Both the position numbers and the translations under genes were made by a program. From the NCBI GenBank assembly GCA_028695895.1, contig JAQVIE010000105.1, forward strand, positions 1-5,442: 5,442 nt of DNA. Reading direction: 5' to 3'. Every line of letters begins with the position of its first letter. The stretch's first letter is position 1. Below the pieces are notes generated by a model. It was not told the DNA's origin, did no database searches, and worked only from the letters and a program-made list of their open reading frames with translations. Positions 744 to 5,442 of this stretch are shown here, piece by piece. The DNA is from Methanospirillum sp. Lineage in GTDB: Archaea; Halobacteriota; Methanomicrobia; Methanomicrobiales; Methanospirillaceae.

Positions 744-818
<75 letters not shown>

Positions 819-1035: not shown

Positions 1036-1719
1036 ATGGAATCTACCATAATTGAGGCACTTGAAAAAATATTCGAAAAACAAAAAAAAGATTATTTACC
1101 ATTTTCTCAATTAAAAAAATTCTTACCTGCATCTGTAATAACTTACCTTTCAATAAACATCAAAAAAATTTCTCAAAAGGATCTTGAGTTACATATCAGT
1201 CCACATCTTCCACCTGAATACAGCTTTTGCAAAAAAAGAAATACCAGGTACCTTCTTCGAAGATCGGTTAAGGACATTGTAAAAAACTATCTGAAAGCTA
1301 ATCCAGATCTCACCCTGAATCAGGTTTTTTCAAGACTCCCATTCCAAAGACATGAGATAGCAGAAATGGTAAACACTCTTGTTGAAGAAGGAGACGCAGT
1401 AATAATCGCCATCCCGCAAACGAACTCTTTTGGTATGAACGTTAAAGTAAAAGAAAAGGGATCTTACTCAGTTGAAGAGTTCAGGAAAGGATTTCAAATA
1501 ACCAGTAATGGAAAGTCATATGTAAAAATATATGAACTTCGTCGTTTTCTCTCCTGGCCAACAAACGAATTCGACTCCTGTCTCCAGTCTTTGTGGGATG
1601 AGGGAATCATAGAGTTGCAAGTAAGTGATCCATCTCTCCTTACACAGGAACAGCAAAGGGATTCCTACAAGGATAAATCCAATACACTAAGAATTCTTCT
1701 TTTATGGAGGGAAGAATGA
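1036..1719 (+). CDS. Winged-helix protein, first gene of the operon (function unknown)
   Basis: The gene encodes 227 residues with no signal peptide or membrane segment. I do not recognise a named family. The sequence reads as two to three winged-helix-like units. An N-terminal helical unit spans about residues 1-50. A second unit, about 76-128, has helices SVKDIVKNYLK and QRHEIAEMVNTLVEEGDAV followed by a strand. The third, about 145-227, has YVKIYELRRFL, a helix EFDSCLQSLWDEGIIEL, then a hairpin-like DPSLLT segment and the closing strand LRILLLW. The first 75 residues are rich in lysine, consistent with nucleic-acid contact. The start is fixed by an in-frame TAA at 1030-1032, only one codon before the ATG. 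The stop overlaps the next gene's start as ATGA, so the two are translationally coupled. Likely roles are a DNA-binding subunit, an adaptor for the downstream ATPase, or an autoregulator. The domain calls are by eye; the function is inferred from context. Confidence 0.82.
   Translation: MESTIIEALEKIFEKQKKDYLPFSQLKKFLPASVITYLSINIKKISQKDLELHISPHLPPEYSFCKKRNTRYLLRRSVKDIVKNYLKANPDLTLNQVFSRLPFQRHEIAEMVNTLVEEGDAVIIAIPQTNSFGMNVKVKEKGSYSVEEFRKGFQITSNGKSYVKIYELRRFLSWPTNEFDSCLQSLWDEGIIELQVSDPSLLTQEQQRDSYKDKSNTLRILLLWREE
1706..1712 (+). promoter_or_regulatory. Ribosome-binding site that decides the ATPase start
   Basis: GGAGGGA lies inside the end of the winged-helix gene. It sits three to five bases before the ATG at 1716, the right place for a Shine-Dalgarno element. 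The earlier in-frame ATG at 1704 overlaps this element and has no site of its own, so 1716 is preferred. That choice also gives a four-base ATGA overlap, the same arrangement as at the next junction. Confidence 0.75.
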
Positions 1720-3719
1720 ATTTGATGTGTAAGATATTATTAGAGAATAATCCGTTTTATTCAAGTTCTCACCCCGACCCATGGGTAAAGGAATTTGCAA
1801 ATATAAGCTCAATTAACGGAGAAGTCTTTAATCCAATAATAAATATAATTGAACAGAGTAGAAAAAAACCGACTGAACCTGTTGGAATTCTTGTAAAAGG
1901 GGAATCAGGGTCAGGAAAGACACACATGATCGCAAGGATTCGTGAACATTGCGAAAAAACTTCTTTTGAAACAAAATTTGCAACAATAAAACCAATAATT
2001 GACTACCATACGCCATTGCAAAGAATATTAAAAGGAATAATTACGAATCTTGCCCACCCTATTGCAGGTTTACGTAAGAAGACACAGATACATGGAATGG
2101 TCTTTTCTATCATCTGTGATTTTTATAAACACCAGCCTGGTACCCAGTCAATAATCCAGAATATGGAGATGAATGATAGTAAATTTTTCTCAATCCTGTG
2201 TCAGAATCAACAAAAAATGGATGTTTTTTTCAGAAACTTACATTGTTGGATACTTCAGGAAGTACCAGGATTAAATTCACGATTTATTAAGCTGCTTTTA
2301 TCATTTTGTAATCCGGATTTACAACAAATAGCTTATATGCGGTTAATAGGAGAGATTAGCGATTCTGAAGAAGCTGATCTGCTTCATGTTCCATTTCAGG
2401 AATATTCAGACCCTGCCATGGAAGACGAGGCAAGGGATTTTTTAATCTCTCTTGGCCTTATTCTTTCACGGTATAATCAGAACCTTATCGTCTGCTTTGA
2501 TCAACTTGAGAGCATGTCAAACCAGGATTTGATTAAGGCATTCGGACAGGTAATTTTTACTATTGTTAATGATTGTAATGCAATAATTCCCCTAACTTTC
2601 ACAAGGACTTTGTTCTGGGATAATGTCCTTTATCCTTCCCTTGATCCTTCTGTTGAAGGAAAACTTGCCATGACACAATGGAACCTTCGCGGGTGTAATG
2701 ACAGGGAGATAGATGATATTATTAAAACACGTATTATGGAAATATTGCCTGAAAATTGGAATGAGCCTTATTCATGGCTGTTATCAGAAGTTAAAAAGGT
2801 AATTCATAAAAATCCTTCTCCACGTGAAGTTATCAGATGTGCAAATACGATAATCCACAACTGTGATGCATCACCAACTTTAACCCCTGCATTATCTCCG
2901 GATGAAGTAATTCATGCTGCATTTACAAATGAACGGGAACAGATAGTATCAGACATGGACTCCTGGCCTCCGGATCACTATGAGCTTACCGATGCATCCA
3001 TTTCATATCTTCAGGCACGGGGATACCAGGTAAAACACATTAAATCCGGGCAAAAATCAATTTTAAAAATATCTATGGCTGGAAAGAAATGCTGCATAAT
3101 TGTAAATACCAACCGAAATCACAGTTCCGTTGGATCAGGGTTTTTAAAAGGAACAAGATTTTTAAATGACAATCCAGGAACAACCTGCATCTACCTGACT
3201 GACCCACGATGCATCTTAACAAAATCAAGCTGGAAACATACGAACCAGTTAAAGGATGAATTTATTACTGCCGGTGGAATGATTTTTCAACCTTCTATTA
3301 GCGAAATAGCCAGATATTATGCATTATATTCCCTATCATGCAAAATAACTGAACAGGATATTCTTATAGACACCAAAACAGGGATAAGACCTGTTAACAA
3401 AGATGAATTATCCTCTTATATCAAAAATAAAACAAAATTCATTTCATTATTTCAGAAATTTACAAATTTACCAGAAACTACAGAAAAAGTATCTTTTTTT
3501 CAGGATGAACATGTACATAAAGCAATGTATCAGATTCTCTCCCAGAAATCGATGCATATCATGGCTGCAGGAACATTATCACAAGAGATCTCCAGAAAAG
3601 GCATAAACATCACGCAGGATGAACTACTTGCCTGGTGTGGAAAACACGTTGATTCATACAGAATTCTTCAATCACAGCATGGTTCAATGATCATACTTCG
3701 TGGAAAAGTACACCCATGA
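1716..3719 (+). CDS. AAA+/ORC-like P-loop ATPase with C-terminal winged helix, second gene of the operon
   Basis: With the start at 1716 the protein has 667 residues and is predicted to be soluble. Walker A is GESGSGKT at residues 62-69 (Lys68). Walker B is probably LIVCFDQLE, with Asp262 and Glu265. A sensor-1-like strand (PLTFTRT) lies near 292-298, and SPREVIRCAN near 368-377 (Arg370) resembles the sensor-2/lid region of AAA+ and STAND ATPases. The long insert between Walker A and B, about 190 residues and mostly helical, is unusual. Residues about 405-545 form an alpha/beta region of unknown identity, with strands ILKISMAGKKCCIIVN and TTCIYLTD. It could be a nuclease-like fold that has lost its catalytic residues, but this is a guess. 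The last 75 residues look like a winged helix, as in Cdc6/ORC proteins. It overlaps both neighbours by four bases. An ATP-driven DNA-binding switch or loader for the nuclease-translocase is the likely role. ATPase identity is solid; the partner role is inferred. Confidence 0.88.
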   Translation: MNLMCKILLENNPFYSSSHPDPWVKEFANISSINGEVFNPIINIIEQSRKKPTEPVGILVKGESGSGKTHMIARIREHCEKTSFETKFATIKPIIDYHTPLQRILKGIITNLAHPIAGLRKKTQIHGMVFSIICDFYKHQPGTQSIIQNMEMNDSKFFSILCQNQQKMDVFFRNLHCWILQEVPGLNSRFIKLLLSFCNPDLQQIAYMRLIGEISDSEEADLLHVPFQEYSDPAMEDEARDFLISLGLILSRYNQNLIVCFDQLESMSNQDLIKAFGQVIFTIVNDCNAIIPLTFTRTLFWDNVLYPSLDPSVEGKLAMTQWNLRGCNDREIDDIIKTRIMEILPENWNEPYSWLLSEVKKVIHKNPSPREVIRCANTIIHNCDASPTLTPALSPDEVIHAAFTNEREQIVSDMDSWPPDHYELTDASISYLQARGYQVKHIKSGQKSILKISMAGKKCCIIVNTNRNHSSVGSGFLKGTRFLNDNPGTTCIYLTDPRCILTKSSWKHTNQLKDEFITAGGMIFQPSISEIARYYALYSLSCKITEQDILIDTKTGIRPVNKDELSSYIKNKTKFISLFQKFTNLPETTEKVSFFQDEHVHKAMYQILSQKSMHIMAAGTLSQEISRKGINITQDELLAWCGKHVDSYRILQSQHGSMIILRGKVHP

Positions 3720-5442
3720 TCAAAATAAACGTATCAGAGCTCCACTTATGTCAGCACTGTCCACGTCTTTTTGCATATTCCAGGATCAAGAAGAAGAAAA
3801 CTGCATTTATCGGTCATAAAGGAACAGGAAACCTTCCAGGGACTCTGTTTCATTCTTTTACCCATATTATCCAGAATGATTTTTCATTAAATGGACCGGG
3901 TAAAGAAAGAATGATTGCATTGATGAAAAAAGATCCTGTTAGATTTTCTACTTACTTTCATGAACTAATAAAAGAAGAATATCTCATACCATTTTTATCT
4001 GAACATGGAATGAATCTTAATTTTGATAAAATTGAAGCGTTTTCATCTGCATGTGAGAGATGGATTAAGTATCTGAGTGATTTTATTTCTCCTCATATAA
4101 GCAGAAACGATGAACCGGGTCTTTTACTTGATAAGATTTTTCATTCTTCTGAATATATCATGATATCCAAACACTCACTATTAGACGGCGAGGTTATTCA
4201 GGTATCAGGAAAACCTGATGCACTTCTTTTTGATCCAAAAACTAATGAACCGGTTGTCCTTGAATATAAAGGAAGAAAAGAATCAGATCCCATGCAGGAT
4301 CTTGCCCAGACTTCACTTTATGCCTGGCTTGTTTCTAAATCCATTGGCCTTACTCCACGAGTAGATATTCTTTATCTGGAAGAAGAGGAACCCCTTGTCA
4401 GGTATTCTCTAACAGAAATCCAAGATATTATTAAAAACCATCCTTCTCTTTTTAAGATAGCCAGGGATGTAACCAAAGAGATAAAACCAATTCCGAGATG
4501 CACTAATCACATGCTTTGTCAGATCTGTCCTTTTTTTGAGAGTTGTGAACAGGATTTTGGTGAAAATATTCCCAAATCCTTATCATTGCAGGAACCTTCA
4601 CATGTTACTATCAAAAAACCAGATGATATCACATCAAGTCCTGATGAACTTCTCTCTCTTCTCATTGAAAAACTTAGATTCCTTTCAATTCCGGTAATTC
4701 CAGCAGGATATACAATTGGCCCGAGATTCATCAGGCTGAAGATCATTCCAGATATAAAGAAAAAGGTAACTTATGCAAAAATTGTAAATCGGGCGGTTGA
4801 TATTCAGCTGGGACTTGCCCTTGAGATTCCACCTTTAATACAGGCGCAGGGAGGTTATATCAGTTGTGATGTTCAGCGAAAGGACTGGGAACCTTTTGAT
4901 GTCAGTTCACTTGTAAAGGAAGGAAATGTTCCTAAAAAACATGCATGTCCATTTCCTTTAGGCAGGAAGATTGATGGATCCATTTTTATGGGAGACCTTG
5001 CTGACCCAATCATGACCAGTTGTCTTATCGGTGGAACATCCGGGTCAGGTAAAAGTGAACTAATACGTTCGATGGTTCTGGGAATTACCATGAACAATCC
5101 TGGGATGAAATTATTATTTACCCTTATCGATCCAAAAAGAGTAACTTTTACAGACTTTGGTTCTTTTCCACTCCTTTCACAACCAGTTATCACGGATTCA
5201 GGCCAGGCCATGAGTGCCCTTGCTATGCATGTTGAAGAAATGGAAGAAAGATATCGAAGACTTGAACTGGCAGGTTATTCAAATATTTCTGATTATAATG
5301 CCATTAAGACTGATAAAATCGTTCGAAATATTATTGTAATTGATGAGTATGCAGATCTTATCATGAATAAAGCAACAAAAGAAGATGTGGAGAATGCCAT
5401 CCAGAAAATCGGACAGAAAGGAAGGGCTGCAGGACTTCACCT
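3716..5442 (+). CDS. Fusion of a Cas4/RecB-type PD-(D/E)XK nuclease with an FtsK/SpoIIIE DNA translocase, 3'-truncated
   Basis: The frame runs without a stop from ATG 3716 to the window end: 575 residues visible, with more beyond. Residues 1-280 are a Cas4/AddB-type nuclease. They show CPRLF at Cys15, motif His46 (GTLFH), Asp168 (GKPDA), Glu183-Tyr-Lys185, the QxxxY motif Gln198-Tyr202, and a closing cysteine set Cys268-x2-Cys271-x5-Cys277. Together with Cys15 these suit a 4Fe-4S cluster. Residues about 305-405 match the FtsK beta domain (YTIGPRF at 332-338), and the RecA-like motor follows. The motor has Walker A GGTSGSGKS (439-447), DPKR (472-475), the EEMEERYRRL and YSNISDYN segments, Walker B IIVIDEYADL (Asp543, Glu544), and GRAAGLHL at the edge. 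There are no membrane helices, unlike cell-division FtsK. The protein should bind, pump along and cut DNA. The ATGA overlap couples it to the ATPase. The domains are confident; the biological role (defence or mobile-element transfer) is inferred. Confidence 0.92.
   Translation, partial: MIKINVSELHLCQHCPRLFAYSRIKKKKTAFIGHKGTGNLPGTLFHSFTHIIQNDFSLNGPGKERMIALMKKDPVRFSTYFHELIKEEYLIPFLSEHGMNLNFDKIEAFSSACERWIKYLSDFISPHISRNDEPGLLLDKIFHSSEYIMISKHSLLDGEVIQVSGKPDALLFDPKTNEPVVLEYKGRKESDPMQDLAQTSLYAWLVSKSIGLTPRVDILYLEEEEPLVRYSLTEIQDIIKNHPSLFKIARDVTKEIKPIPRCTNHMLCQICPFFESCEQDFGENIPKSLSLQEPSHVTIKKPDDITSSPDELLSLLIEKLRFLSIPVIPAGYTIGPRFIRLKIIPDIKKKVTYAKIVNRAVDIQLGLALEIPPLIQAQGGYISCDVQRKDWEPFDVSSLVKEGNVPKKHACPFPLGRKIDGSIFMGDLADPIMTSCLIGGTSGSGKSELIRSMVLGITMNNPGMKLLFTLIDPKRVTFTDFGSFPLLSQPVITDSGQAMSALAMHVEEMEERYRRLELAGYSNISDYNAIKTDKIVRNIIVIDEYADLIMNKATKEDVENAIQKIGQKGRAAGLH

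Follow-up and report, generated by a model that had tools for sequence, protein, structure and literature searches.

The 5,442-base stretch of Methanospirillum sp. DNA analyzed here (the window; contig C184 of a genome bin of 1.7 Mb in 319 contigs, 75.9% complete) encodes a fusion of a Cas4/RecB-like nuclease of the iron-sulfur (Fe-S) type with an FtsK motor. Sequence comparisons confirm this fusion, with its catalytic and Walker residues intact, and identify its gene, gene C, as the third gene of a conserved three-gene cassette, A-B-C, beside a tRNA-Glu gene. Judged from its distribution, the cassette is an accessory one that moves. We consider that the trio is probably an anti-invader restriction machine, where A and B would pick and grip foreign DNA, gene C would form a ring on DNA that uses ATP hydrolysis to pump the duplex, and the predicted iron-sulfur PD-(D/E)XK domains of gene C would cut the pumped DNA.

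Gene C spans positions 3716..5442 of the forward strand, which carries all of the features described below, and is open at the contig end, leaving 575 of its 658 amino acids in the window. The contig stops 83 residues before the end of the protein; the full-length sequence was obtained from a relative (P0001) that is identical across all 575 window residues and contains both halves. An earlier note on this DNA, made from the sequence letters, had read the single frame as a nuclease joined to an FtsK motor, and Pfam supports both parts of that reading: the N-terminal half matches PDDEXK_1 at residues 4-277 (E 2.9e-11, passing the cut-off) and the C-terminal half matches FtsK_SpoIIIE at residues 408-575 (E 5e-26), with a match to FtsK_alpha at residues 307-369 that falls under the cut-off. 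PADLOC assigns Cas4 to the first part (E 5.7e-11) and the SspH motor to the second (E 6.3e-33). Relatives were sought by scoring 7,995 candidates, yielding 187 found and 120 listed; the alignment used 69 of those listed, chosen because they are full-length. Both halves are kept in all 69, and therefore a sequencing frameshift or a chimera joining two genes is excluded. H46, D168, K185, Q198, and Y202 of the nuclease domain (residues 1-287, 3716..4576) are invariant in the 69 rows, while position 183 is always acidic (E in 62 rows, D in 7). Equally invariant are K446, D543, E544, R570, and Q581 of the motor (from residue 306, 4631..5440), whose Walker A (residues 440-447, 5033-5056) and Walker B (D543/E544, 5342-5347) can be read directly from the sequence. 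The nuclease residues, E183 included, and the Walker A lysine K446 thus stand, intact, where the earlier note had placed them.

AlphaFold2 modeling of gene C produced two confident parts (mean predicted local distance difference test score, pLDDT, 92.7) connected by a loose linker at residues 288-305. In this model the motor has an FtsK fold and comprises the alpha and beta domains of FtsK, the alpha domain being an addition to the beta domain and Walker A/B-bearing motor recognized earlier. Structural matches span mainly residues 329-658 and include antiphage HerA and HerA-NurA; the nuclease fold is assigned from Pfam, from the motifs, and from the presence of Dna2 among the Foldseek matches. 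A sequence search of solved structures returned no significant match for the gene C nuclease, gene B, or gene A. The motor would be an active hexamer. The model of the full protein stops right after the motor, with no gamma domain, and no membrane-like stretch was detected, the best 19-residue mean hydropathy being 1.5 vs. 2.3-2.8 in three cellular FtsKs, which bears out the claim that the membrane domain is absent. In a motor tree, a 100/100 branch divides the 38 fusion motors from the 12 cellular FtsKs (15 cellular loci were picked, of which 12 gave a usable motor).

The same 69 rows were used to evaluate the cysteines proposed to hold an Fe-S cluster. C15 (3758..3760) and C268, C271, and C277 (4517..4546) are all present in 55 rows; two others have C268, C271, and C277 with a gap at the position of C15, and these last three, which are present or absent together, are missing in 12. 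The alignment makes these four the likely Fe-S ligands, a refinement of the cysteine set mentioned in the earlier note; C12 varies across the rows, being cysteine in just 45 of the 69, and is not a likely ligand. Cas4 has four conserved cysteines, and gene C contains both the PD-(D/E)XK core and the four-cysteine set by which Cas4/Fe-S nucleases are defined in the text of PMC5704561; the protein would bind an Fe-S cluster. In a nuclease tree, all four cysteines are present in rows L016, L101, L124, L109, L110, and L100, and L128 and two further groups have an incomplete set, a pattern that suggests loss of the Fe-S set more than once. The rows of L128 and L100 are long and 17 of the 40 branches are starred, which limits how well the losses can be counted.

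Genes A, B, and C overlap one another on the forward strand downstream of tRNA-Glu, and the view of gene C as a single protein, taken in the earlier note, is incomplete. Gene B was sought at 17 loci that had been found via gene C or its nuclease and had upstream sequence (the window, L006, L009, L014-L016, L024, L027, L094, L095, L097, L099-L101, and L108-L110), using a profile built without most of these loci. It lies directly upstream of gene C in 16, and in the 17th (L097, in genome G011) an IS66 transposase gene (L097:2617-4074) separates gene C from a broken gene B. Two further loci, L096 and L098, have gene C at a contig end and were uncheckable, and loci reached through gene B (L119, L124-L133, L136, L149-L156) contain it by selection and stand outside this count. 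As a control, a motor-motif scan kept 80 loci, all 80 with a motor; the nuclease was detected in 5 and gene B in the same 5, while the other 75 gave one marginal B-like match (L053, E 4e-5). Gene A was recognized by profile in the window, L014, L015, L094, L095, L097, L099, L100, L108, and L109, the profile having been built including the window, L014, L015, L095, and L097. At L100 the A-like part is fused to a B-like part, L024 gives a weak match (E 4.8e-4), L016, L027, and L101 have an unrecognized gene of 266-431 amino acids at the place of gene A, and L006, L009, and L110 end before that place. The conserved cassette rules out a lone enzyme. At three loci, in two genomes of the genus Methanospirillum and on a cyanobacterial plasmid, an SNF2 helicase gene, for which ZorD and DpdE are the nearest PADLOC models, and a SWIM-type gene adjoin the trio (L095:2754-6301, L099:3643-7667, and L101:295-4432); being beside these three only, they are not counted as part of the system.

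Gene B (1704..3719, 671 amino acids) was modeled with a mean pLDDT of 84.1 (model m7daec91d7a6e), in the order AAA+ module (residues ~40-386, 1821..2861), restriction endonuclease (REase)-like domain (residues 425-574, 2976..3425, from the helix/strand order), and C-terminal winged helix (residues 601-665, 3504..3698, from the secondary structure). The modeled fold is of the Orc/Cdc6 type, with the transposition ATPase TnsC tying with Orc in the list of structural matches. The AAA+ module has a Walker A with K72/T73 and a Walker B with D266-Q267 and an acidic residue at 269. The usual AAA+ Walker B is D-E; in gene B it reads D-Q-[LIV]-[ED] (2499-2510), invariant in 13 of 13 rows. The ExK motif is absent from the REase-like domain in the same 13 rows, and no database or structural match was obtained for this domain. 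Gene A (1036..1719, 227 amino acids) is fast-evolving, being 22-24% identical to Desulfobacterota versions, and is likely a small winged-helix protein, as its matches, all sub-threshold, are repeatedly to winged-helix families.

Cellular FtsK reads chromosome signposts through its gamma domain. Gene C is without this domain and therefore would depend on A and B for loading, B being the candidate to load gene C in place of the missing domain. Invader DNA would be the target and self DNA would be spared; the cassette contains no modification gene. Several points weigh against restriction of invaders by the trio: its activity, target, and protection are predictions from sequence; the gene C model (predicted template modeling score, pTM, 0.59) does not fix the placement of the nuclease on the motor; and the REase-like domain of gene B and the winged helices of gene A rest on topology and sub-threshold matches. 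Relatives without the Fe-S cysteines still have the catalytic residues, and therefore the cluster is not essential family-wide. The system is not represented among the PADLOC models, whose matches cover single domains, and most trios (e.g., those at L014, a Desulfobulbaceae locus, L015, L094, and L108) sit among ordinary genes with no evident defense island.

Defense by the trio could also be abortive, the invader switching the complex on and the infected cell dying from indiscriminate DNA degradation. The DUF4297-HerA system, in which a HerA motor works with a nuclease, acts by abortive infection according to the text of PMC11291478, antiphage HerA matches the gene C motor in structure, and the cassette is without a self-marking gene. 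The evidence assembled here does not separate suicide from selective restriction, but the DNA-binding parts predicted in A and B favor site choice, and we regard an abortive mechanism as a serious but rather unlikely alternative.

The occurrence of the cassette bears on any role within the host. Gene C was found in 8 of the 101 relatives searched, own genome counted: the own genome, 6 of the 11 other same-genus genomes, and one from another genus in the family, with a nuclease-only version. In an evenly drawn set of 344 genomes of the own phylum, gene C was found only in the genome that contains the window. Sampling around the Desulfobacterales genome G102 gave gene C in at least 4 of 395 genomes, and gene B relatives were detected in at least 11 of 390 genomes around G102 and at least 11 of 294 around the Planctomyces genome G103, counts that include G102 and G103 themselves and are lower bounds from at most 3-6 scored candidates per genome. 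Within the window, the cassette's site is bordered on the left by tRNA-Glu (744..818, anticodon ttc, identified by ARAGORN), which follows an aminotransferase gene (2-691, Aminotran_4 E 9e-45). Eight other same-genus genomes match the window across these two genes; in the seven compared, similarity stops 0-54 bases past tRNA-Glu, and the six with enough sequence have other genes 3' of it, two of these being common to G003 and G001. Gene content 3' of tRNA-Glu differs among the genus members compared (window 744-818 and L170-L175), which makes this a variable site. The trio lies elsewhere in the genome in G001, G003, G009, and G011, as does the B-C end in G002 and G006, and one copy of gene C (L101) is on a conjugative Pseudanabaena plasmid. 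G006 has, in addition, an incomplete second copy of the motor that contains an internal stop and lies at a contig end (L012, G006:C260:55378-56304), and this copy is likely decaying; this L012/L096 motor piece was left out of the analyses.

These data bear on a role in DNA repair, where gene C would resect broken host ends with B as its loader. The Foldseek matches include Dna2, an Fe-S nuclease-helicase that acts in repair. The text of PMC9960219 describes end resection by HerA-NurA, a nuclease with a ring motor of the same superfamily and itself a structural match of the gene C motor. Gene C, however, is missing from 5 of the 11 other genus genomes, three of the five 99% complete, and was not found in 391 of the 395 genomes sampled from the phylum of G102 (presence being a lower bound, with no more than 6 candidates scored); its sites vary, including one on a conjugative plasmid, all of which makes repair quite improbable. 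A mobile element's own machinery, with A and B acting in its replication or integration and gene C moving or processing its DNA, would be consistent with the tRNA-side site of variable content, the plasmid copy, and the tie of TnsC with Orc, but the trio includes no integrase, transposase, or relaxase and most copies are isolated among chromosomal genes, so that we give this explanation very little credence. A phage gene is rejected: none of the 221 phage records with a match covers 80% of gene C, and a scan of viral contigs with a 6-row nuclease alignment (A4) found no relative.

Returning to restriction of invaders, relatives of the trio combine nuclease, motor, and loader in several ways. 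At L109 and L110 the same nuclease family is accompanied by a HerA/DndH-like motor, L016 has a 3'-5' exonuclease placed before the nuclease, and L100, from the sister genus, has the nuclease without a motor. The L100 locus (L100:7230-12451) encodes the motor-less nuclease, a second B, and a protein that combines an A-like with a B-like part. A single protein of 1,708 amino acids at L128 (L128:4153-9279) unites an AAA+ part with both the nuclease and a HerA-like motor, and L131 has an AAA+-FtsK fusion with no nuclease recognized by profiles. Among loci reached through B, neither nuclease nor motor was recognized by profile at L125, L126, L127, L119, L132, L133, L149, L150, L151, L153, L155, and L156, while L124, L136, and L152 have the nuclease and no recognized motor, L136 and L152 being cut at a contig end. 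In the nuclease tree, HerA-linked rows adjoin FtsK-linked Fe-S rows (26-row branch, 97/93). We tentatively suggest, as a conjecture somewhat less likely than not to hold, that the system is a defense ring counterpart of RecBCD/AddAB: an FtsK pump that has shed its membrane and DNA-reading parts and is armed with up to six iron-sulfur nucleases would be placed on foreign DNA by an ATPase of the origin-recognition type, whose dead restriction-enzyme domain would serve as DNA reader. Nuclease and loader would form the constant core, and the motor, swapped between FtsK and HerA, would set which invader process is intercepted. The system could reveal if a restriction engine can arise from a pump for chromosome segregation, and if the loading role of the FtsK gamma domain can pass to an Orc/Cdc6-type ATPase; relatives without the Fe-S cysteines or with another motor provide natural controls.

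Gene C differs from cellular FtsK in being without a membrane domain and a gamma domain and in having a nuclease in front. The earlier note had likened it to AddAB or RecBCD. Because FtsK-type motors pump duplex DNA and do not unwind it, that comparison is loose, and HerA-NurA, DUF4297-HerA, and DndFGH are closer models. HerA-NurA and DUF4297-HerA resemble gene C in that a nuclease is driven by a ring motor, which belongs to the same superfamily (PMC9960219 and PMC11291478, as their texts describe them), but are built of separate subunits, use HerA and not an FtsK motor, and have no Orc-type partner. DndFGH/SspFGH likewise joins a nuclease and a HerA/FtsK motor in one protein, DndH, with partner ATPase and winged-helix genes. 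DndH, however, has ~1,700 residues and many further domains, as the text of PMC10853773 describes, whereas gene C has 658 and a different nuclease; membership is rejected on size and domains, the PADLOC SspH match covering the motor part only. UvrD-Cas4 and other helicase fusions of Cas4-like (pfam12705) nucleases also couple such a nuclease to a DNA motor in defense contexts, but with a superfamily 1 helicase where gene C has an FtsK pump and, in the text of PMC5704561, no Orc-type partner described.

The closest known systems are the Orc/CDC6-coupled "HerA/FtsK capture" systems, predicted by comparative genomics to be anti-invader systems by Rakesh, Aravind and Krishnan 2024 (PMC10853773), an idea that PMC12839542, in the portion relevant here, carries over to BREX-related systems. 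The earlier note knew of no characterized enzyme with this layout; no experimental study of such a nuclease-FtsK fusion, or of the class it belongs to, was found in the open-access literature, but the class had already been predicted. As set out in the main text of PMC10853773, these loci encode an Orc/CDC6 ATPase with an inactive REase ahead of its winged helix, an active REase from one of two families, and HerA/FtsK, one set having FtsK alpha; a subset has a DndG/SspB-related protein with 2-4 winged helices, and in others the motor protein carries a fused 3'-5' exonuclease. The window likewise contains an Orc/CDC6-type AAA+ ATPase gene and an FtsK motor with its alpha domain. Its nuclease has intact residues and may correspond to the active REase, the domain before the modeled winged helix of gene B has the place and helix/strand order of the inactive REase, gene A may be the counterpart of the extra winged-helix gene, and relatives of gene C include fused 3'-5' exonuclease and HerA-type motor forms. 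The nuclease of gene C seems to differ in being of the Cas4/RecB type with a predicted Fe-S set, and the terms "Cas4", "RecB", and "Fe-S" are absent from that main text. The capture mechanism was proposed from sequence alone, and the joining of nuclease and motor in one 658-residue protein with two partners makes it testable with three genes. The features of the window fit closely with a new member of this predicted class, whose particular traits are its archaeal host, its compact fusion, and its predicted Fe-S set.

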